Below, piece after piece: positions 24,931 to 64,000 of a DNA stretch of 64,000 nucleotides. Source of the stretch: Galbibacter sp. BG1. GTDB taxonomy: Bacteria > Bacteroidota > Bacteroidia > Flavobacteriales > Flavobacteriaceae. The notes below the pieces were generated by a model, which was not told the origin of the DNA, made no database searches, and saw only the letters and a list, made by a program, of their open reading frames with translations. The DNA lies in assembly GCF_013391805.1 (NCBI RefSeq), contig NZ_CP058364.1, positions 1,488,501 to 1,552,500 of the forward strand, read 5' to 3'. The first letter of the stretch is position 1. Each line of letters starts with the position of its first letter. The position numbers were made by a program, and so were the translations under genes.

Positions 24931-26424
24931 TTATTCAGACCTAAATTTAGGAAAAGAAACTGTGAAAACCGTGCCTTTATCCAAAACAGACGACAAACAA
25001 ATGTGACCTTTATAGGTTTCTACAATGTTTTTTACCATTCCCAAACCTAATCCCATACCGCTGGTTTTAGTAGTAAACTTGGGCTCGAAAATCTTTTCTT
25101 GGTTTTCTTCGGCAATGCCAACACCGTTATCGGCAATAGAAATTTTCACTTTATCTTTTTCAGAATAGACATTAACCACAATTTTTGGATCACGATCTTC
25201 TGGAATCGCTTGTATGGCATTTTTTACCAAATTTGTAATTACCCGAATGAGTTGGGTACGGTCTAATTTTGCGATGATTTCTTTTTCGTCTGTGATGAAC
25301 CTTATGTAATCTTCATTAAAAATATCCACGGAAAGTTTTACTACTTCAATTACATTTAAGGTTTCATTCTGCTGTGCAGGCATGTTGGCAAAACTTCCAA
25401 AAGCAGAAGCAATGTTGCTCATGGTGTCTATTTGCTGAATCAATGTTTTGGAGAATTCCGCTACTTTACTTTTGGCATTTTCATCCGTAGGGTCAAATTT
25501 TCTTTCGAAACTTTGTACGCTGAGACGCATCGGGGTAAGCGGATTCTTAATTTCGTGGGCTACCTGCTTCGCCATTTCCCGCCATGCCTGTTCCCGTTCG
25601 CTTTTGGCGAGAAGGGTGGCACTGCGCTCCAACTCGTCGATCATATCGTTATAAGCGTCTACCAAAGCTCCGATTTCTTCACTTGGGTCGTCTAGATATA
25701 TTTTTTGATTTCGTTTGCTGAGCCTGGTTTGGTGCAGTTTGTCGCTTATCGCTTTTAGGGATCGGGTAATGTATTTAGAAATAATGTAAGCCAAAATTAC
25801 GGCTAGGGCAAGTAGTAAAATATAGACTGCTGCAAGTTTCAGCAAGAATTCTTTTAATTCGTTGTTGTTAAAGGTATCATCCTCATAATAAGGGATATGC
25901 AAAATCCCAATGGGTTTAAATTTTGGGTCTAAAATATAACTGTAGGAAGATTGAAAACGATCCCCAGCGGCTTTGGTTTTTTCTACATACTGCCTGCTGG
26001 CACTCGATGCAATTCCTTGAATAACATTTTGGTTTAATTTGGTGTTGTATTCCCCACGCTCTATTCGAGGTTTGGAGCTTATAATTAAATTCCCATCAAG
26101 ATCGTAAACATTAAAATTAATGTCCAACACATCTGAAGCTTCGTAGATGGCATGTTTGTATTCTAAGATATATTTTAAATTCTCGGTCTTTACTTCCCAA
26201 GTGGTGTTTTTAAGAATGTAGTCTATTTGTGCGTTTAGCTGATCTTCTTTTCGTTGCAAATATTCTTTATGGTAGTCTTCTGCCTGTTCTTTGTATTGAT
26301 AAATGGTAACGCCGGCAATTAGCACAGAGGCCAAAACCACGATTAATATCATGGTTATAAAAATGCGTGTTCGAAGTGAAAGTTTGTTGTACACTGGCGA
26401 ATTTTTCTTCGTTAAATATAACAA
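24931..26424 (-). CDS. NtrY-like membrane sensor histidine kinase
   Basis: Sensor kinase of 497 residues. Two membrane segments (about residues 22-44 and 195-216) flank a periplasmic sensor region. HAMP follows (about 217-270), then HisKA with the phospho-acceptor in [13 protein letters not shown] (about residue 291) and a HATPase domain with the N box ([10 protein letters not shown]), G1 ([10 protein letters not shown]) and G2 ([14 protein letters not shown]). The HEIKNPLTP form is typical of NtrY-type kinases. No response regulator gene is next to it, so its partner is encoded elsewhere. Confidence 0.92.
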
Positions 26425-31096: not shown

Positions 31097-33529
31097 ATGT
31101 ATGTAATTAAAAGAGACGGTAGACAAGAACCCATTATGTTCGACAAAATTACGGCTCGTGTTCGTAAGCTTTGTTATGGGTTGAACGAATTGGTAGATCC
31201 CGTAAAAGTGGCGATGCGAGTTATCGAAGGGCTTTACGACGGGGTGACCACATCGGAGTTGGATAATTTGGCGGCAGAAATTGCTGCTACCATGACAACT
31301 ACACATCCAGACTATGCGCGTTTGGCGGCAAGGATTTCAGTTTCCAATCTTCATAAAAACACCAAAAAGTCGTTTTCTGAAACGATGACGGATCTTTATG
31401 AATATGTAAATCCGCGTACCGGTAAAAAAGCTCCTTTGCTTTCCGACGAAGTTTACAAAGTCATAGAGGAGCATGGCGACAAATTGGATTCCATGATTAT
31501 TTATAACCGGGATTTTGGGTACGATTATTTCGGATTCAAAACCTTGGAGCGATCCTATCTTTTAAAGTTAAACGGAAAAATTGCAGAACGTCCTCAACAT
31601 ATGTTAATGCGTGTTTCCGTAGGGATTCACCTAGACGATATAGACAGTGTGCTGGAAACATACGAGCTCATGTCTAAAAAATATTTTACACACGCTACGC
31701 CTACATTATTCAATTCTGGGACACCAAAACCGCAAATGTCGTCTTGCTTCTTGTTAACTACCAAAGAAGATAGTATAGATGGGATTTACGATACTTTAAA
31801 GCAAACAGCTAAAATATCGCAGTCTGCCGGTGGTATTGGGCTTTCTATACATAACATCCGCGCTACAGGAAGTTATATAGCAGGAACCAATGGTACTTCC
31901 AACGGGATTGTTCCTATGTTAAAGGTTTTTAACGATACAGCACGTTACGTAGATCAAGGAGGAGGAAAGCGTAAAGGGTCTTTCGCCATTTATATTGAAC
32001 CATGGCATGCCGATATTTTTGACTTTCTTGATCTTAAAAAGAACCATGGTAAAGAAGAAATGCGCGCCCGCGATCTTTTCTATGCCATGTGGATGTCCGA
32101 TTTATTTATGAAACGTGTTGAAGAGAACGCGGAATGGACATTGATGTGCCCTAACGAATGTCCGGGACTATGCGATGTGCACAGTGAAGAATTTGAGGCG
32201 CTTTATACTAAATATGAAGCCGAAGGAAAAGGACGAAAAACCATAAAGGCGAGAGAGCTTTGGGAGAAAATTTTAGAATCTCAAATTGAAACGGGAACGC
32301 CTTATATGCTTTACAAAGATGCGGCCAATAGAAAATCGAACCAAAAGAACCTAGGGACTATTCGATCTTCTAACTTATGTACCGAAATTATGGAGTACAC
32401 CTCCCCAGATGAGGTAGCGGTATGTAATTTGGCGTCCATAGCTCTGCCTATGTTTGTAAAAGGCACAGAGTTCGATCATAAAGAACTGTTTAAAGTTACC
32501 AAGCGTGTTACCAGAAACCTTAACCGGGTAATCGATAGAAATTACTATCCTGTTAAAGAAGCAGAAAACTCCAATATGCGCCATAGACCTATTGGTTTAG
32601 GGGTGCAAGGGTTGGCCGATACGTTTATTAAATTGCGTATGCCTTTTACTTCAGATGAAGCTAAAAAATTAAATCAAGATATTTTTGAAACCCTTTATTA
32701 TGCTTCTGTAACCGCTTCTATGGAAATGGCAAAAGAAGAAGGGGTGTATCAATCTTACGAGGGGTCACCAATTTCTCAAGGGGAATTTCAGCATAACTTA
32801 TGGGGGATTAAAGATGATGAACTTTCCGGCAATTGGGATTGGGAAAAATTGAGAAAAGATGTAAAGAAAAACGGAGTTAGAAACTCTTTGTTAATGGCGC
32901 CAATGCCTACTGCTTCCACTTCTCAAATTCTTGGTAACAACGAATGTTTCGAGCCTTACACATCAAATATTTACACAAGAAGAGTTCTTTCAGGGGAATT
33001 TATTGTGGTAAACAAGCATTTGTTGGAGGATTTAGTAGAACTCGGACTTTGGACAGAGGAATTGAAGCAGGAGTTAATGAGAGCCAATGGTTCTATTCAG
33101 CATATTGAAACCATTCCGCAGGAAATTAGAGAGCTTTATAAAACGGTTTGGGAGCTTAGTATGAAAGATATTATCGATATGTCCCGCCACAGAGGATACT
33201 TTATCGATCAGTCGCAGTCGCTTAACCTGTTTATGGAAGGTGCCAATTATGCCAAGCTTACCTCTATGCACTTTTATGCTTGGAAGAGCGGATTGAAGAC
33301 AGGAATGTATTACCTCAGAACAAAATCTGCTGTAGATGCGATTAAATTTACATTAGACAACACTAAGAAAACAGAAAAAGTACCAGCAGAAGCTGCAGAA
33401 GTTAAAGCTGAGGCAACTGCAAAAGCCGCTCCGGTGGCAGTAGAGCCTTTATCACCACAGGAGTTGAAGGAGATGTTGGCAAAATCGAGAGATGCCGAGG
33501 ATGATGACTGCTTAATGTGTGGATCTTAG
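31097..33529 (+). CDS. nrdA: Class Ia ribonucleotide reductase alpha subunit
   Basis: Catalytic subunit of 810 residues. An N-terminal ATP-cone ([18 protein letters not shown], residues 1-90) gives allosteric activity control. The barrel has the active-site cysteines in PQMSSCFLL and [11 protein letters not shown], and the finger-loop region is visible. An Ala/Glu-rich linker (about 765-790) leads to the C-terminal redox tail DDCLMCGS, whose CxxC pair is reduced by thioredoxin or glutaredoxin. It follows nrdB and ends at a strong terminator. Confidence 0.97.
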
Positions 33530-57294: not shown

Positions 57295-58350
57295 ATGGAA
57301 CTTTACAATCAACTAAAAGGGCTTGCTGATAAGATTGAACTTTTAAAGGATAAAATAGATACAGAGGAATCTACTAAGCATGCGTTTACACTTCCTTTTA
57401 TAAACATTTTAGGATATGATACATTCAATCCTACCGAAGTTGTTCCTGAGTTTACGGCTGATTTAGGGCTAAAAAAGGGAGAGAAAGTAGATTACGCGAT
57501 ATTCCAAAATGGAGTTCCCATTTTAATTATCGAGTGCAAGCACTGGAAACAGGATTTGAATGTTCACAATTCTCAGCTTTTTAGATATTTTCATGTTACC
57601 AAAACTAGATTTTCCCTGCTTACCAATGGCATTATTTATCGTTTTTACACTGATTTGGAGGAAACCAATAAAATGGATGAAAAGCCTTTCTTAGAGTTTG
57701 ATATTACTAAGATTAAGGAGATCACCGTTAAAGAAATTGAAAAATTCCATAAGTCAAAATTTGATGTTTCTACAATTGTTGATAATGCTAGCAATCTTAA
57801 ATATACAAGGGAGGTAAAGAGCTTAATTGATGAAGAATTACAAAACCCCTCTCATGATTTCGTGAAACTGTTTGCTAATAGAGCATACAGTGGTAGATTG
57901 ACTTCAAAAGTTATGGATGAATTCACAGAAATTGTTGGAAAGGCATTCAGTCAAATAATTAGTGAAAAGGTAAATGACAGATTAAATTCAGCTTTAAACA
58001 AAGAACAAGAAAAGCAACAAGAAGAAGATCATGTTGAGGAAATACCAAAAAATCAGATTGAAACCACCGAAGAAGAATTGGAGGGTTACCAAATTGTACT
58101 TGCAATTTTAAGGCGAAAGCTGGATAAAACAAGAGTAGTTCACCGAGACACGCAATCTTATTTTGGAATTCTGCTAGACGATAACAATAGGAAACCAATA
58201 TGTAGACTTCACCTAAATGGCGGAGTAAAGTATATAGGCTTATTTGATAAGGATAAAAATGAAATTAAGGAAAAAATAGAATCTGTAGATGATATATACA
58301 ACTTTGAAAGTCAGCTTTTGAAAACAGTTGGTTTTTATGATGGGGAGTAG
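57295..58350 (+). CDS. Solitary HsdR N-terminal-domain protein (PD-(D/E)XK nuclease-like)
   Basis: 351-residue protein with the type I restriction R-subunit N-terminal domain (about residues 15-160). The nuclease motif is complete: Asp66 in EKVDYAIF, then Glu80 and Lys82 in LIIECKHW. The rest has a charged, Gln/Glu-rich linker (about 230-260) and a C-terminal domain (about 265-350, with RVVHRDTQSYFGILLDDNNR). No helicase motor, methylase or specificity gene is nearby. Proteins of this form are common in bacteria and of unknown function; a defence or repair role is possible but not shown. Confidence 0.82.
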   Translation: MELYNQLKGLADKIELLKDKIDTEESTKHAFTLPFINILGYDTFNPTEVVPEFTADLGLKKGEKVDYAIFQNGVPILIIECKHWKQDLNVHNSQLFRYFHVTKTRFSLLTNGIIYRFYTDLEETNKMDEKPFLEFDITKIKEITVKEIEKFHKSKFDVSTIVDNASNLKYTREVKSLIDEELQNPSHDFVKLFANRAYSGRLTSKVMDEFTEIVGKAFSQIISEKVNDRLNSALNKEQEKQQEEDHVEEIPKNQIETTEEELEGYQIVLAILRRKLDKTRVVHRDTQSYFGILLDDNNRKPICRLHLNGGVKYIGLFDKDKNEIKEKIESVDDIYNFESQLLKTVGFYDGE

Positions 58351-58773: not shown

Positions 58774-59526
58774 TCATTTCAATCTATTCCGCACATACTT
58801 CCCATACATATACTCAGTAACCGGTTTTAAATCCTCTCCATTAACGGGGTGTTTTCCGTACCAAGAAAAGAACTCAACAGAATCTTTGTCAGCTTTGTAA
58901 TAATAAGATTTCCCTACTTCAACTGCCTTTAAGGGAATCCGTTTCATGTGTTTATATAACTTAGCATCATACCGAACAATTGTATTTGTAGCTGTCTTAT
59001 GGTCATTCAAATCACAGGAAACTTCTATAAATTTTGTTTCTTGCCAAGTCATGCAAGAAGATTCTTTTTCGTTAGTAAAAAATAGGTTAAAGCATAACAT
59101 TCCGAGAAGGGAAATTCCTAAAATCAAAATCAATAACCTTTCTTTTGGTCTTCGTTTTAATGGAGTACCTTTTATTGGCTTATCCGTTTCTCTTTCCAGC
59201 TTTTCTTCCGAATAGTTATTTATAAAGTCTTCGTAATTTTTATATCCCAAATACCGGCTCATGGCTTCGAGTAAGTCATGTTTGGGTTTTGATGCATGGG
59301 GGTTTGTAGCATCAATATATTTTTTATAGGCACGCTCTATGGTTTTATAGGAAGTATTATGGTAGCATTTAAGGTCGTTATGAAATTTCGATTCTAAATA
59401 AACACTAAGACCATGTGGGCTATTTTTTGTCGATTCCTTTTCAGCTTTCTCAAAAACCTTTCTTACAAGTGCTTCAATCTTATCCATTACAGTTGGTTGG
59501 TATTCAAAATTAATACTATTAGACAT
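58774..59526 (-). CDS. Hypothetical membrane protein with helical N-terminal domain
   Basis: 250-residue protein. The cytoplasmic N-terminal part (about 1-115) is helical, with a pattern (SYKTIERAYKKYID, LLEAMSRYLGYKNYEDFI) I recall from other Bacteroidetes proteins without assigned role. One membrane segment lies at about residues 130-150 (LLILILGISLLGMLCFNLFF), and the outer part (about 155-250) is beta-rich. It is transcribed away from the lipoprotein-kinase-regulator cassette and shares its upstream region, so it may be part of that system; this is inference. Confidence 0.65.
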   Translation of the reverse strand: MSNSINFEYQPTVMDKIEALVRKVFEKAEKESTKNSPHGLSVYLESKFHNDLKCYHNTSYKTIERAYKKYIDATNPHASKPKHDLLEAMSRYLGYKNYEDFINNYSEEKLERETDKPIKGTPLKRRPKERLLILILGISLLGMLCFNLFFTNEKESSCMTWQETKFIEVSCDLNDHKTATNTIVRYDAKLYKHMKRIPLKAVEVGKSYYYKADKDSVEFFSWYGKHPVNGEDLKPVTEYMYGKYVRNRLK

Positions 59527-59843
59527 TATTTAGACATTCTTGTCCAACAAAAATTAGACAACCTTTTCCGTGTTCTGTCCGCAATCAAGCTGCTTTCTAC
59601 CATTTACTTTGCCTCGTAGAATGATTTGGTTGTGTAAAGCTAACATAACCATAGCGCTACAATCATTCTTACGGAAATCCTCAATGCAGTGACTTATGCA
59701 CATTGGGAAGTGGCAAAATGTTGCTGTATTAGGATTTCTACTTCCCAAAACACGGTTCCTATAAGAAGGCAATTGCCTTAAGGAATAATCAGCTGGCTGT
59801 GGCCGAGCAGGAACCTTTTTGTTTAATTTTTAAATCTATTAAA
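59527..59843. promoter_or_regulatory. Shared upstream region with TTAGACA repeats and a 14-bp palindrome
   Basis: Between divergent genes. TTAGACA occurs at 59519-59525, 59530-59536 and 59554-59560 (first two 11 bases apart, one helical turn). An inverted repeat pairs 59616-59626 with 59661-59672, and AAGGCAATTGCCTT (59766-59779) is a perfect palindrome 64 bases before the lipoprotein start. A 72-codon minus-strand frame (59554-59772) crosses the region and was not accepted as a gene. Confidence 0.45.
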
Positions 59844-60008
59844 ATGAAAAAAATATTCTTATTGATATTACTCGCTTCGATAAACGCAGGTTTTATTTCT
59901 TGTTCTACGGAAGATGTTTCAGAAACAGAGGCACTATACAACCATCAAGCCAATGGTGAAGATGGTCATACAGGAGGGGACCCTAATGACCCCGATCCGG
60001 TAGACTGA
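59844..60008 (+). CDS. Tiny acidic lipoprotein upstream of a sensor kinase
   Basis: 54-residue protein from the ATG at 59844. The signal peptide and lipobox end in GFISCSTED, so the mature part is only about 35 residues, Asp/Gly/Pro-rich and acidic (GEDGHTGGDPNDPDPVD). It lies 31 bases before the kinase gene on the same strand. Such a short exposed lipopeptide in front of a kinase with periplasmic TPRs could be a ligand, a cap or a sensor partner of that kinase; this is inference, and no family was recognised. Confidence 0.7.
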   Translation: MKKIFLLILLASINAGFISCSTEDVSETEALYNHQANGEDGHTGGDPNDPDPVD

Positions 60009-60039
60009 AAAATGTATTTATAATTCTTACATTTGAGGA

Positions 60040-61989
60040 ATGAAAACCAACCTACTTTCATTCCTCATTTTTTTTACCTGTTTTTGTGTACTTATATCGT
60101 GTCAGCAAGAAGCAAAAACTAAACAAAAGAATGTGGGTGCTACCAATAATACCGACTCCCTATACCTAGAAGCCAATGCACAAAAGGCCAATTCAGAAAT
60201 AGAAAAAGCACTAGAAGTAAATGCGTTGGGAATTAAAGCTTTGGAAAACGATTCAGATTCCATCTATGCAAAGTTTTTAAGACAGCGTATTGTTTTGCTG
60301 GGGCGTAAAAGGCCTTTGGATAGCGCAATTTATTATGCGAACAAACTGTTAGACCTTCAGAGAAAAAATAAAGACACCAGCTTAATAGCTGATGGTTATT
60401 ATTTAAAGTCGTACTATTTTGATAAAAATAATAGCATAGACAGCACGTTATTAAATGCCTACCGAGCTCTTCAATTGTTTAAAGAAGTTAGAGATAGCAC
60501 CAACGTAGCATTAAAATCTAGATTTTTATCTGCAATTTTAAGTGATTTGGCAAACTATGAAGAAGCGGAAGTTGTCGGCGTAGAAGGAATTGGTTACATA
60601 ACTGCTCAGGATAATGCAGAATTGTATTCCAGCTTGTGTAACTCATTAGCGATTATAACAAAAAACAGGGAAAATTATAATGAATCGCTATACTGGTATA
60701 TTAAAGCGTTGGAGTGGACAGAAAGCAAGCTCAACAAAAACATCATTCAGAATAACATTGCCGTTGTTTATTTAAAACAGGGAAAGTATCAAAATGCTTT
60801 CCAATTGTTGAATGAAATTAAAGAGGATACGGTTTTCACTAATCCAAATAATACTTCACATAGAGTAAGAGTACTAGATAATTGGGCTTATGCGAAAAGC
60901 AAGTTGAACCATATTGATGCAGAAAAACATTTATTGGAAGCATTAGAACTTAGAAAAAAACGGAATATAGCCTTTAATTTAAACGCAAGTTATATTCATT
61001 TGGCAGAGCATTATGCAGATAGAAACGATTTAAGAGCGTTGAGTATGGCAAAAAATGCCCTTAAAACGGCCAAAACATATAATAATCCAGACGACCAACT
61101 AGCAGCGCTATCCATTTTGATAGACGTTTCAGCCAATCCTAGACCTTACGCTATTTTATACAGGGATATTAGTGATAGCATTCACAAGGTACGAGAACAG
61201 GCGAAAACAAGTTACGCGAAATTAAAGTATGATGTAACACGTAACCGACAAGAAAACACCAATTTAAAGGCAGAAGCGAAAATCAGGGAATTAGAAATCA
61301 GCCAAGCTCGGTTAAGAAACTTGGTTTATGTGGTTGTTATTGTCATACTGTTGCTAGTGGCAATTTGGCGGCATAAATACGTAAAAAATAAACACCGAAG
61401 GGAGAAAGAAAAAGCTATATACGACACTGAATTGGGCATATCCAAAAAAGTCCATGACGAACTGGCTAACGATGCTTTTAATATATTATTGTTTATTCAA
61501 AATGAAACAATTTCATTTGCCCAAAAAACAGCTATAATCGATGCTTTAGATAGTCTCTATAAAAAAACAAGGGATATCGCTAGGGAATTTAACGATATCA
61601 AGACGGGCATTGAGTTTGAAGAAACGCTTAAAAGTCTTCTTTCAAGATTCAATACTGCCGAAACGAGTATAATTAGCAAAGGCATTCAAGATGTTCCTTG
61701 GTCCGAGATAACCGACCTTAAACAGAAAGCACTGTACCGTGTTCTTCAGGAACTTTTAATTAATATGAAGAAGCATAGCGGGGCTACACTGGTTATTCTT
61801 CATTTCAAAAATGCCGGAGATAAATTAAGTATTTCCTATTCAGATAATGGAGTCGGAATCAAAAATAATCAACGTTCTAGCGGAAATGGAATAAGGAATA
61901 TGGAAAACCGTATTGATTTGGTTAATGGAAAAATTAGTTTTGATGATTCCGTCAAAGGATGTAAAGTGAAAATCGAAATTCCCTACTGA
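60040..61989 (+). CDS. TPR-repeat sensor histidine kinase
   Basis: 649-residue kinase. The N-terminus is a lipoprotein-type signal (LISCQQEAK), followed by a long periplasmic TPR array (about residues 40-400, e.g. SLYWYIKALEWTES), then one membrane segment (about 427-447). The kinase core is of the HisKA_3/NarX kind, with His472 in KKVHDELAND and the ATPase N-box LQELLINMKKHSGA, DNGVGIKNN (about 603) and GNGIRNMENRI. TPR modules bind peptides or proteins, fitting sensing of a small exported peptide. The regulator gene follows by 13 bases. Confidence 0.92.
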   Translation: MKTNLLSFLIFFTCFCVLISCQQEAKTKQKNVGATNNTDSLYLEANAQKANSEIEKALEVNALGIKALENDSDSIYAKFLRQRIVLLGRKRPLDSAIYYANKLLDLQRKNKDTSLIADGYYLKSYYFDKNNSIDSTLLNAYRALQLFKEVRDSTNVALKSRFLSAILSDLANYEEAEVVGVEGIGYITAQDNAELYSSLCNSLAIITKNRENYNESLYWYIKALEWTESKLNKNIIQNNIAVVYLKQGKYQNAFQLLNEIKEDTVFTNPNNTSHRVRVLDNWAYAKSKLNHIDAEKHLLEALELRKKRNIAFNLNASYIHLAEHYADRNDLRALSMAKNALKTAKTYNNPDDQLAALSILIDVSANPRPYAILYRDISDSIHKVREQAKTSYAKLKYDVTRNRQENTNLKAEAKIRELEISQARLRNLVYVVVIVILLLVAIWRHKYVKNKHRREKEKAIYDTELGISKKVHDELANDAFNILLFIQNETISFAQKTAIIDALDSLYKKTRDIAREFNDIKTGIEFEETLKSLLSRFNTAETSIISKGIQDVPWSEITDLKQKALYRVLQELLINMKKHSGATLVILHFKNAGDKLSISYSDNGVGIKNNQRSSGNGIRNMENRIDLVNGKISFDDSVKGCKVKIEIPY

Positions 61990-62002
61990 TTCAAAAGCAA
62001 CC

Positions 62003-62668
62003 ATGTTTAAAAAAGTATTGATAGCCGAAGATATAGACAGTATAAACGCAGGTTTAATAGCGAACTTAAAACAGTCGTTTGATTTTGAAATAGACCATGC
62101 AAAATATTGTGATGATGCTCTACTGAAATTTAAAAAAGCAGTATTGGATCGAAATCCCTACGATTTATTAATAACAGACTTATCATTTAAGCAAGACCAC
62201 CGTGAGTGCGCAATGTATTCTGGAGATGCGCTTGCCAAGGCCGTGCTAACGGAAGACCCTTCCATTAAAGTAATTGTATATTCCATCGAAGACCGTCCCC
62301 AAAAAATAAAATCCCTTTTTCAAGAGGCTGGTATTAGTGCTTATATATGCAAAGGTAGGGAGAGCGCCAAAGAATTTAAAACGGCTATAGAAACCATTTA
62401 CACATCGCAGCAATACCTATCACCGGAAATTGCGTATGCAATGAATGGAGAACCAGTTTTGGAAATAGAAGAATTTGATATTTTATTGCTGAAGGAGTTA
62501 GCTAATGGAAATTCGCAAGATGAAATATCAGCCCTTTTTAAAGAAAAAAATATCAAGCCTTCCAGTTTAAGCAGTATTGAAAAGCGGCTTAATAAACTTA
62601 AGATTTCTTTTAAGGCGAAGAATGCCACACACTTAGTTTCTATAGTAAAAGACTTAGGACTAATCTAG
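62003..62668 (+). CDS. Response regulator with C-terminal HTH
   Basis: 221-residue regulator partner of the TPR kinase. The receiver domain (about 1-125) has acidic pocket residues in IAEDID and phospho-acceptor Asp59 in LLITDLSF, with the conserved Lys in AYICKGRES. The C-terminal region (about 150-221) has a LuxR-like pattern (DILLLKELANGNSQDEISALF, split here as LLLKELANGNSQDEI; AKNATHLVSIVKDLGLI), so it is a transcription factor of the NarL type. It follows the kinase gene by 13 bases. Confidence 0.9.
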   Translation: MFKKVLIAEDIDSINAGLIANLKQSFDFEIDHAKYCDDALLKFKKAVLDRNPYDLLITDLSFKQDHRECAMYSGDALAKAVLTEDPSIKVIVYSIEDRPQKIKSLFQEAGISAYICKGRESAKEFKTAIETIYTSQQYLSPEIAYAMNGEPVLEIEEFDILLLKELANGNSQDEISALFKEKNIKPSSLSSIEKRLNKLKISFKAKNATHLVSIVKDLGLI

Positions 62669-63702: not shown

Positions 63703-64000
63703 AACCGAACTGTTTAGAAGTATAATAATTTTATTAATTTTAAACAGCAATTATGAGAAAGAGTAAATTCAGTCCGCAACAGATCGCAAAGATTTTAAAA
63801 GAATTCGACAACGGCAAAACAGCTGCTCAGATCAGCCGTGAGCACGGTGTGAGCACCGCTGCCTTCTACAAATGGCGGGAACGCTATGCAGGGATGAGCG
63901 GTAAGGAGCTAAAACGGTTAAAGGAGCTCGAAGAGGAAAACCGTAAGCTCAAGCAGATGTATGCCACATTGGCCCTTGACCACCAGATGGCCAAGGAGGT
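63687..64000 (+). mobile_element. IS3-family insertion sequence, left end (continues past the window)
   Basis: The presumed left terminal repeat begins TGTAAGCTCCCC at 63687, the usual TG end of IS3-type elements, and 66 bases later an IS3 OrfA starts. The right end lies beyond 64000, so length and target duplication cannot be read here. Confidence 0.75.
63753..64000 (+). CDS. IS3-family transposase OrfA (partial)
   Basis: Frame open to the window end (82 full codons). The N-terminus MRKSKFSPQQIAKILKEFD leads into a helix-turn-helix (AAQISREHGVSTAAFYKWR) and a leucine-zipper-like stretch (LKRLKELEEENRKLKQMY), the standard plan of IS3/IS407-group OrfA. OrfB, with the DDE integrase, should follow outside the window, normally reached by a -1 frameshift in this family. 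Confidence 0.9.
   Translation, partial: MRKSKFSPQQIAKILKEFDNGKTAAQISREHGVSTAAFYKWRERYAGMSGKELKRLKELEEENRKLKQMYATLALDHQMAKE

Follow-up and report, generated by a model that had tools for sequence, protein, structure and literature searches.

The 64,000-nucleotide (nt) stretch of Galbibacter sp. BG1 (family Flavobacteriaceae) analysed here, positions 1,488,501 to 1,552,500 of contig NZ_CP058364.1 and hereafter called the window, holds a locus made up of a divergent membrane protein (P4), a pseudoknot RNA leader, a tiny exported lipoprotein, a tetratricopeptide repeat (TPR) sensor kinase, and a response regulator. P4 (250 amino acids, aa) is encoded at 58774..59526 on the minus strand, as read from the open reading frame (ORF) list, hydrophobicity, and a structure model. 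On the plus strand follow the 54-aa lipoprotein (59844..60008; ORF list and family comparison), the 649-aa TPR histidine kinase (60040..61989; ORF list, Pfam, and structure model), which starts 31 nt past the lipoprotein stop, and the 221-aa regulator (62003..62668; ORF list and Pfam), which starts 13 nt past the kinase stop. An earlier note on this DNA had placed these four genes in the same positions, with the same gaps of 31 and 13 nt; new here are a lipobox-like signal (LISC) at the start of the kinase and a structured RNA in the shared control region. The co-occurrence data presented below are strong evidence that P4, the RNA, and the exported peptide form one unit, often linked with a TPR kinase and regulator.

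The lipoprotein is read from an ATG at 59844 to the stop at 60008 (the mechanical ORF opens earlier, at a GTG at 59799) and contains a conserved ...QANGEDG... block and an acidic/proline tail. Relatives of the kinase were present at E ≤ 1e-20 in 227 of the 397 family genomes surveyed; the kinase-anchored set was drawn from the top of the listed matches and comprises 110 loci (112 kinases), and co-occurrence was counted over 110 rows, each with at least 1300 nt upstream. A second set of 79 named loci overlaps the first, and each count tallies loci, which need not be independent events. Directly upstream of 65 of the 112 kinases, at a median gap of 42 nt, lies a family-like lipoprotein ORF of 47 to 68 aa, so that the small ORF proposed in the earlier note is real, conserved, and predicted to be exported. 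The order of lipoprotein and TPR kinase, whose recurrence that note had suggested checking, is also seen in 63 of the 79 named loci, and a regulator lies downstream in 57 of the 65 cases. Two flavours of peptide can be told apart, of which SCT.DS.AE..LYE.QATEGDDGD accompanies longer kinases (about 650 aa) and SCTP....QACCGEDGEIPPPPPP shorter ones (about 550 aa). The ratio of nonsynonymous to synonymous substitution was 0.19 for the signal and 0.27 for the mature part over 36 overlapping pairs, a ratio biased downward because the pairs were chosen for protein identity of at least 72%; judged from these comparisons, the family is under purifying selection. A hidden Markov model of the lipoprotein, searched through 1.58 Mb of kinase loci, gave no match at E ≤ 1e-5 outside the neighbourhood of a kinase or P4 and five (2 and 3) at E ≤ 1e-3; it was trained on copies adjacent to kinases, so only the absence of matches elsewhere is informative. 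Recurrence before kinases, association with P4, and selection together rule out a random small ORF, and conservation of both the signal peptide and the C-terminal block rules out a leader peptide or attenuator as the main role of the ORF. The window peptide has nothing above cut-off in Pfam or NCBIfam; over 33 peptides the best family matches were to the PG1828-family lipoprotein (12/33, best E 3.2e-4), with a further weak match to PRIMA1 (5/33, best E 0.0012).

Between P4 and the lipoprotein, the intergenic regions are strongly conserved when aligned, and the window leader (59618-59850) folds with a z score of -6.0, none of 200 shuffles being equally stable. The leader alignment places a candidate promoter element, TTACTTTG, at 59604..59611 (+); it resembles, with one mismatch, the Bacteroidota -7 promoter element, and elements of the same type are also present in Flavobacterium leaders. 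A predicted 5' hairpin (59618..59669, +; single-sequence fold) is followed by the core, an H-type pseudoknot at 59668..59748 (+), which is supported by covariation and scored 72.3 bits (E 3.5e-15) with our covariance model R1. Helix P1 runs from 59673 to a partner ending at 59739 (+; GGAAATCC.../...GGATTTC in the window), and helix P2 pairs GGGAAGT at 59705-59711 with ACTTCCC at 59740-59746 (+). Further downstream, folding gives a third helix, P3 (59754..59820, +), which is terminator-like by form: GGTTCC at 59754-59759 pairs with GGAACC at 59810-59815, then TTTTT, and the palindrome AAGGCAATTGCCTT (59766-59779, +; palindrome search) lies inside it.

The alignment behind R1 contains 56 leaders out of 62 non-redundant ones, six (L105, L147, L158, L163, L208, and L227) having been removed by hand with no formal criterion. 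In these 56 leaders, 82.8% of cells were paired versus 69.4% in shuffles, and 228 cells carried double changes versus 92.6 (standard deviation 10.2) in shuffles; when the partner was slid along, 33-54% of cells were paired and 39-78 showed double changes. Double changes occurred at 16/16 P1 pairs and 4/7 P2 pairs; because leaders were selected on the P2 arms, P2 pairing is partly by construction, and P1 played no part in the choice. The P2 arms vary among GGGAAGU/ACUUCCC, GAGAAGU/ACUUCUC, and GGAAAGU/ACUUUCC, and the P1 sequence is replaced completely between lineages (AAGTGCG/CGCACTT in Flavobacterium). Placed in cis ahead of the peptide gene, the leader is therefore a conserved structured RNA that shows compensatory changes. 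It is unlikely that GGGAAGT/ACTTCCC serves only as a DNA operator, since P1, around and between these arms, covaries. Of 138 leaders, 69 fit a strict arm pattern and 109 fit wider ones; in a pairing search 112 of the 138 exceeded the 95th percentile of 120 controls and 78 exceeded the control maximum, the controls shuffling 2-mers so that dinucleotides are not strictly preserved. R1 also gave weak matches in the window at 59703-59782 (minus strand), 32848-32926, and 26159-26200 (E 0.005-0.08). Rfam 15 returned no family at gathering score in the eight loci scanned and, at a permissive threshold, nothing plausible for the window stretch or six further loci. Palindromes of at least 10 nt follow P2 in 36 of 109 leaders, versus 3.6% of mononucleotide shuffles; they lie upstream of P1 in 31/109 and just before the ATG in 4/109. 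Those directly after the pseudoknot have lineage-specific sequences (GGAGTACTCC, GAGACGTCTC, and AAGGCGCCTT, besides that of the window), and these perfect palindromes may be DNA operators or RNA dimer sites.

The hydrophobic stretch of P4 begins at residue 131, and its model predicts a helical cytoplasmic domain of five helices (13-114), a flexible linker, a transmembrane (TM) segment at about 127-150, and an alpha/beta outer domain (158-249). The outer domain is modelled confidently; for the whole model the mean predicted local distance difference test score (pLDDT) is 89.4 and the predicted template modelling score is 0.47, so the relative placement of the domains is uncertain. Five residues (W161, Y209, K211, P227, and L233) do not vary across 48 sequences. 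The window protein had no Pfam or NCBIfam match at E ≤ 0.01 and nothing above cut-off, and over 32 P4 proteins the best matches in these libraries were E 0.0012 and E 0.0055, in one member each. Against the PDB, the best E values were 1.7 with Foldseek and 0.5 in a sequence search. Weak relatives of the cytoplasmic domain were seen in larger membrane proteins of about 300-430 aa with other outer parts (L285:1923-3215, minus strand; L288:2700-3605, plus strand), and this domain perhaps belongs to a wider receptor family.

The kinase model (mean pLDDT 86.8) predicts TPR-like helices at 32-363, then a long helix through the membrane, with TM at about 425-443. The kinase with a TPR array described in the earlier note is confirmed by TPR_12 (35.1 bits) and HATPase_c (31.2 bits, residues 562-648), both above the Pfam cut-off. 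H472 and D473 are conserved in at least 90% of 55 relatives; HisKA_3 was not listed for the kinase at E ≤ 1 in Pfam. With HATPase_c above cut-off and a conserved phosphoacceptor histidine (H472), the protein qualifies as a two-component kinase. A regulator is present as that note had said, and a relative of it follows 90 of 113 kinases; its assignment to the NarL type is weakly supported, as Response_reg reached 25.5 bits against a cut-off of 30.2 and the listed matches include no GerE/NarL output domain. Its best NCBIfam matches are weak and UvrY/UhpA-like. In a defence library the only matches were weak (SduA on the regulator, E 2.4e-4; LmuB on a neighbour in L153, E 0.0018). The BG1 genome has one P4, one such RNA, and no other close copy of the kinase or of the regulator.

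Over the 110 kinase rows, 51 had both peptide and P4, 13 the peptide only, 2 P4 only, and 44 neither; in the 79 named loci the same classes numbered 47, 16, 2, and 14. Both P4-only rows are accounted for, by a peptide about 1 kb before the kinase (L037) and by a broken peptide gene (L083). Searched over the 397 family genomes, P4 gave 104 matches at E ≤ 1e-20, and 100 of these had a peptide opposite, a count compared by eye with fetched loci added for matches beyond the peptide list; the exceptions are genomes G071, G013, G005 (which holds L083), and G030. Fourteen strong peptide matches did not adjoin a listed kinase: two (L157 and L159) lie with a diverged TPR kinase and regulator, and among the other 12, P4 is opposite in 11 and in L156 there is none. 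In Galbibacter marinus the regulator and P4 are on one contig and the peptide and kinase on another (L246 and L007), so all four parts are kept though unlinked; in Flavobacterium johnsoniae strain CI04 (L204), peptide, P4, RNA, kinase, and regulator are all present.

The RNA follows the same pattern. At R1 E ≤ 0.01, the threshold used for the 110 kinase loci, RNA and P4 were both present in 49, RNA without P4 in 5, P4 without RNA in 5, and neither in 51; for RNA and peptide there were 52 loci with both, 2 with RNA only, 13 with peptide only, and 43 with neither. In the five loci with RNA and no P4, one (L007) has P4 elsewhere in its genome, in another (L093) the RNA belongs to a peptide-P4 pair beside the kinase, two (L021 and L038) have Flavobacterium-type divergent genes, that of L021 leaving the stretch at the outer domain, and one (L031) has no P4 in view. 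For the five loci with P4 and no RNA, arms were found by pattern in L105 and by eye in L088 and L104; L083 and L092 remain. At E ≤ 0.1, the threshold for named loci, R1 matched in leader position in 62 of 79, namely 60/63 with a peptide, 2/2 with P4 only, and 0/14 with neither. Searched through 14 whole genomes, R1 gave 13 matches in 10 of them, 13/13 at peptide genes, and no match in G250, G071, G013, and G486; the last is a miss of R1, as L273 from the same genome matched at E 0.0015 in a smaller search.

These counts and the peptide-P4 pairs lacking a kinase directly downstream rule out the peptide as an obligatory partner of the kinase, and strongly support P4 as its constant partner instead. 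The link between lipoprotein and divergent gene, which the earlier note had offered as inference, is thus now strongly supported by co-occurrence; the gene order it described does recur, but the lipoprotein, perhaps a ligand in its reading, does not hold up as the specific partner of the kinase. That note had also taken loss of the small ORF from relatives keeping kinase and regulator as a refutation. Zhouia amylolytica (L008/L168) shows just this, with a kinase 47-48% identical and the regulator kept, and no peptide, P4, or RNA at the locus; genome-wide there is no P4 at 1e-6 and no RNA, and peptide-profile matches are weak (best E 7.6e-6). As P4 and the RNA are gone as well, this case speaks against dependence on the kinase, not against a role for the peptide.

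The unit also occurs outside the family. Of 395 genomes surveyed across the phylum, 36 gave a P4 match, ten of them from outside the family, and in 10/10 of the latter P4 is divergent to a TPR kinase and regulator. The gap in between holds a tiny ORF of 49-81 aa with a hydrophobic start in 10/10 (L279 and L275 after an inner start was chosen), picked by eye among other small ORFs in the gap; these ORFs have ends such as DTGGEDGHIPIKK, DTGGETGHIPPPPPKGKG, or GGNTGQLPPPPRP, with a similar C-terminal block, and the peptide profile A1 matches none of them. R1 matched 8/10 of the leaders at E ≤ 0.1 and 6/10 at E ≤ 0.01, the misses being L278 and L280. A clear lipobox is missing from most of the out-of-family ORFs (AFAC in L278 is a possible one), and by this sequence criterion the lipid anchor does not look universal in the peptide family. 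If these ORFs are homologous, the C-terminal block, not the lipid, would be the common denominator. At L277:3881-4607, two tandem tiny peptide ORFs with similar ends, DTGGDEGHTPRK and DTGGEDGHIPIKK, lie between P4 and the kinase.

Several other neighbours were recorded. An HSDR_N protein (59.9 bits) is encoded at 57295-58350 (+) in the window, and of 171 loci searched, 28 have a relative of it close to the module, some of these relatives being truncated where the locus sequence stops: 25/111 with peptide or P4 versus 0/48 without (two samples, p 0.07 and 0.016), and also 3/12 out-of-family or added loci, making it a possible recurring neighbour. An HTH_Tnp_1 transposase ORF at 63753-63998 (+) extends past the window end. 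Elsewhere, peptide-P4 pairs with no kinase directly downstream lie near proteins of about 420 aa without a Pfam match (L147-L149, L153, and L154), a VWA protein (L155), or a weak tubulin-like match (L151). Four loci that lack P4 and RNA (L024, L029, L030, and L039) show, by eye, several copies of a GTCATGAC palindrome upstream of the peptide, and another divergent ORF of 244-288 aa lies opposite; the palindromes are perhaps an alternative control of the peptide operon.

From the parts, their co-occurrence, the covarying RNA, and the predicted export and topology, all computed here, we infer every step of binding and control in the following reading, which we hold tentatively, a little short of an even chance: P4, the leader RNA, and the exported peptide would form an envelope peptide-signalling unit, usually wired to a TPR kinase. 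The peptide would be exported and held outside the inner membrane, by a lipid in Flavobacteriaceae and mostly with no clear lipidation in the out-of-family loci. There, the outer domain of P4 would be the first to read the C-terminal end of the peptide, a glycine/acidic block with a proline-rich or acidic tail; where a kinase is present, its extracytoplasmic TPR array would probably read it too. P4 would relay the reading across its single TM segment to the helical cytoplasmic domain, which would control the divergent peptide operon through its promoter or folded leader, and the kinase and regulator would supply a wider output. The P4 and kinase models show the predicted topology that this needs. 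We place moderate confidence in the peptide acting outside the inner membrane through its C-terminal part, and weak confidence in which protein reads it and in whether P4 acts on RNA or DNA. In a bolder version, which is doubtful, P4 would be a new class of membrane-spanning receptor for its own exported peptide, acting directly on the pseudoknot leader of that peptide's messenger RNA, and this self-sensing peptide-RNA circuit would be reused across Bacteroidota, in most loci plugged into TPR kinases and elsewhere alone.

Several observations weigh against the signalling unit as drawn. Neither peptide, P4, nor RNA is found at 42 of the 110 kinase loci, so the kinase and regulator function in their absence. 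Among the peptide loci, nine lack both P4 and RNA, and each of these has a different divergent ORF, 244-292 aa long; the peptide can thus live without P4, and a peptide-kinase operon can be under other control. Genomes G071 and G013 have P4, with no peptide or RNA found. Searches of Pfam, NCBIfam, and the PDB gave no known DNA- or RNA-binding match for the cytoplasmic domain of P4, and in Flavobacterium this domain differs while the outer domain is kept. Finally, several Flavobacterium loci with peptide and RNA have a P4-like protein without the outer domain, which weakens that domain as an obligatory receptor; five such proteins, all on the minus strand, end just past the TM segment and lie beside peptide, RNA, and kinase (L199:3322-4020, L215:3622-4251, L229:3267-3974, L230:3370-4002, and L236:1432-2061).

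Other explanations must be set beside the peptide-signalling unit. It is possible, though unlikely, that the locus is an envelope-stress monitor, for which RcsF and NlpE are the models: a reporter lipoprotein whose failed processing, outer-membrane transfer, or exposure is sensed by P4, the kinase, or both. The short lipoprotein of Flavobacteriaceae, with its acidic low-complexity mature part, would suit such a monitor, and the peptide-P4 pair stands alone in some loci; however, the out-of-family members, mostly without a clear lipobox (the possible one in L278 aside), nevertheless keep position, P4, kinase, and C-terminal block, and the end of the peptide is conserved, not its start alone. 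Decidedly unlikely is a riboswitch-like leader, in which the pseudoknot would sense a metabolite or ion, the operon would handle that compound, and P4 would be a parallel regulator. The length of the leader, its stable fold, the covarying pseudoknot, and the terminator-like stem with its T run would suit such a switch. Metabolite riboswitches usually serve several operons, though, and this RNA was found at peptide genes only in the 14 genomes, follows P4, and has a P1 sequence that is free to change. It is improbable that the peptide is a private ligand of the TPR kinase alone with P4 an ordinary transcription factor opposite by chance, for although the order peptide, kinase, regulator is frequent and peptide flavour tracks kinase length class, peptide-P4 pairs exist without a kinase directly downstream, 44 of the 46 rows in which a kinase has no peptide are also without P4, and an ordinary factor would need no conserved outer domain.

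To our knowledge, peptide signalling has hardly been described in Bacteroidota. A search of the open literature found no paper on it, although only papers with all terms combined would show and subscription journals lie mostly outside its reach; by title and the start of the abstract, no paper on this system was found either. The unit appears to be widespread and undescribed. Through it, these bacteria might detect a peptide of their own beyond the inner membrane. The module is a testable candidate for an envelope peptide signal, with a covarying RNA open to compensatory mutation.

The kinase and regulator alone are of a known kind. The closest two-component systems are the HisKA_3-type UhpBA and NarXL: the C-terminal half of the kinase has UhpB as its top NCBIfam match (E 1.2e-17, far under the model cut-off), and downstream lies the putative regulator with its below-cut-off receiver match; unlike in those systems, the sensor is an extracytoplasmic TPR array, HisKA_3 is not listed, and peptide, P4, and leader RNA are extra. 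The lipid anchor does not look common to the whole peptide family, unlike in RcsF and NlpE. The leader resembles Flavo-1 (RF01705) and 6S-flavo among the Rfam RNAs of Bacteroidota in being a covarying RNA of this phylum but, unlike them, matched no family in the stretches scanned. CadC/ToxR-like regulators consist of a cytoplasmic winged-helix domain, one TM segment, and an outer domain; P4 has the same predicted topology, whereas its cytoplasmic part is a five-helix domain, with no winged-helix (Trans_reg_C) match among 32 P4 proteins in Pfam and NCBIfam and no PDB fold match at E < 1. In Agr-like systems an exported peptide, a membrane kinase, and a regulator share one operon, as they do here, but the sensor differs, P4 and the RNA are extra, and no peptide-modifying or export enzyme is among the ORFs listed at the window locus. 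RRNPP proteins are cytoplasmic TPR receptors of peptides that are imported; here too a TPR protein is encoded beside a small exported peptide, but its array is predicted to lie outside the inner membrane, between the N-terminal signal/lipobox and the TM segment, and is fused to a kinase, so that peptide import would not be needed, and the module has an extra membrane protein and an RNA. Of the five parts, the exported peptide, P4, and the pseudoknot RNA lack a convincing match in the libraries searched, and no kind of system is known to combine them.

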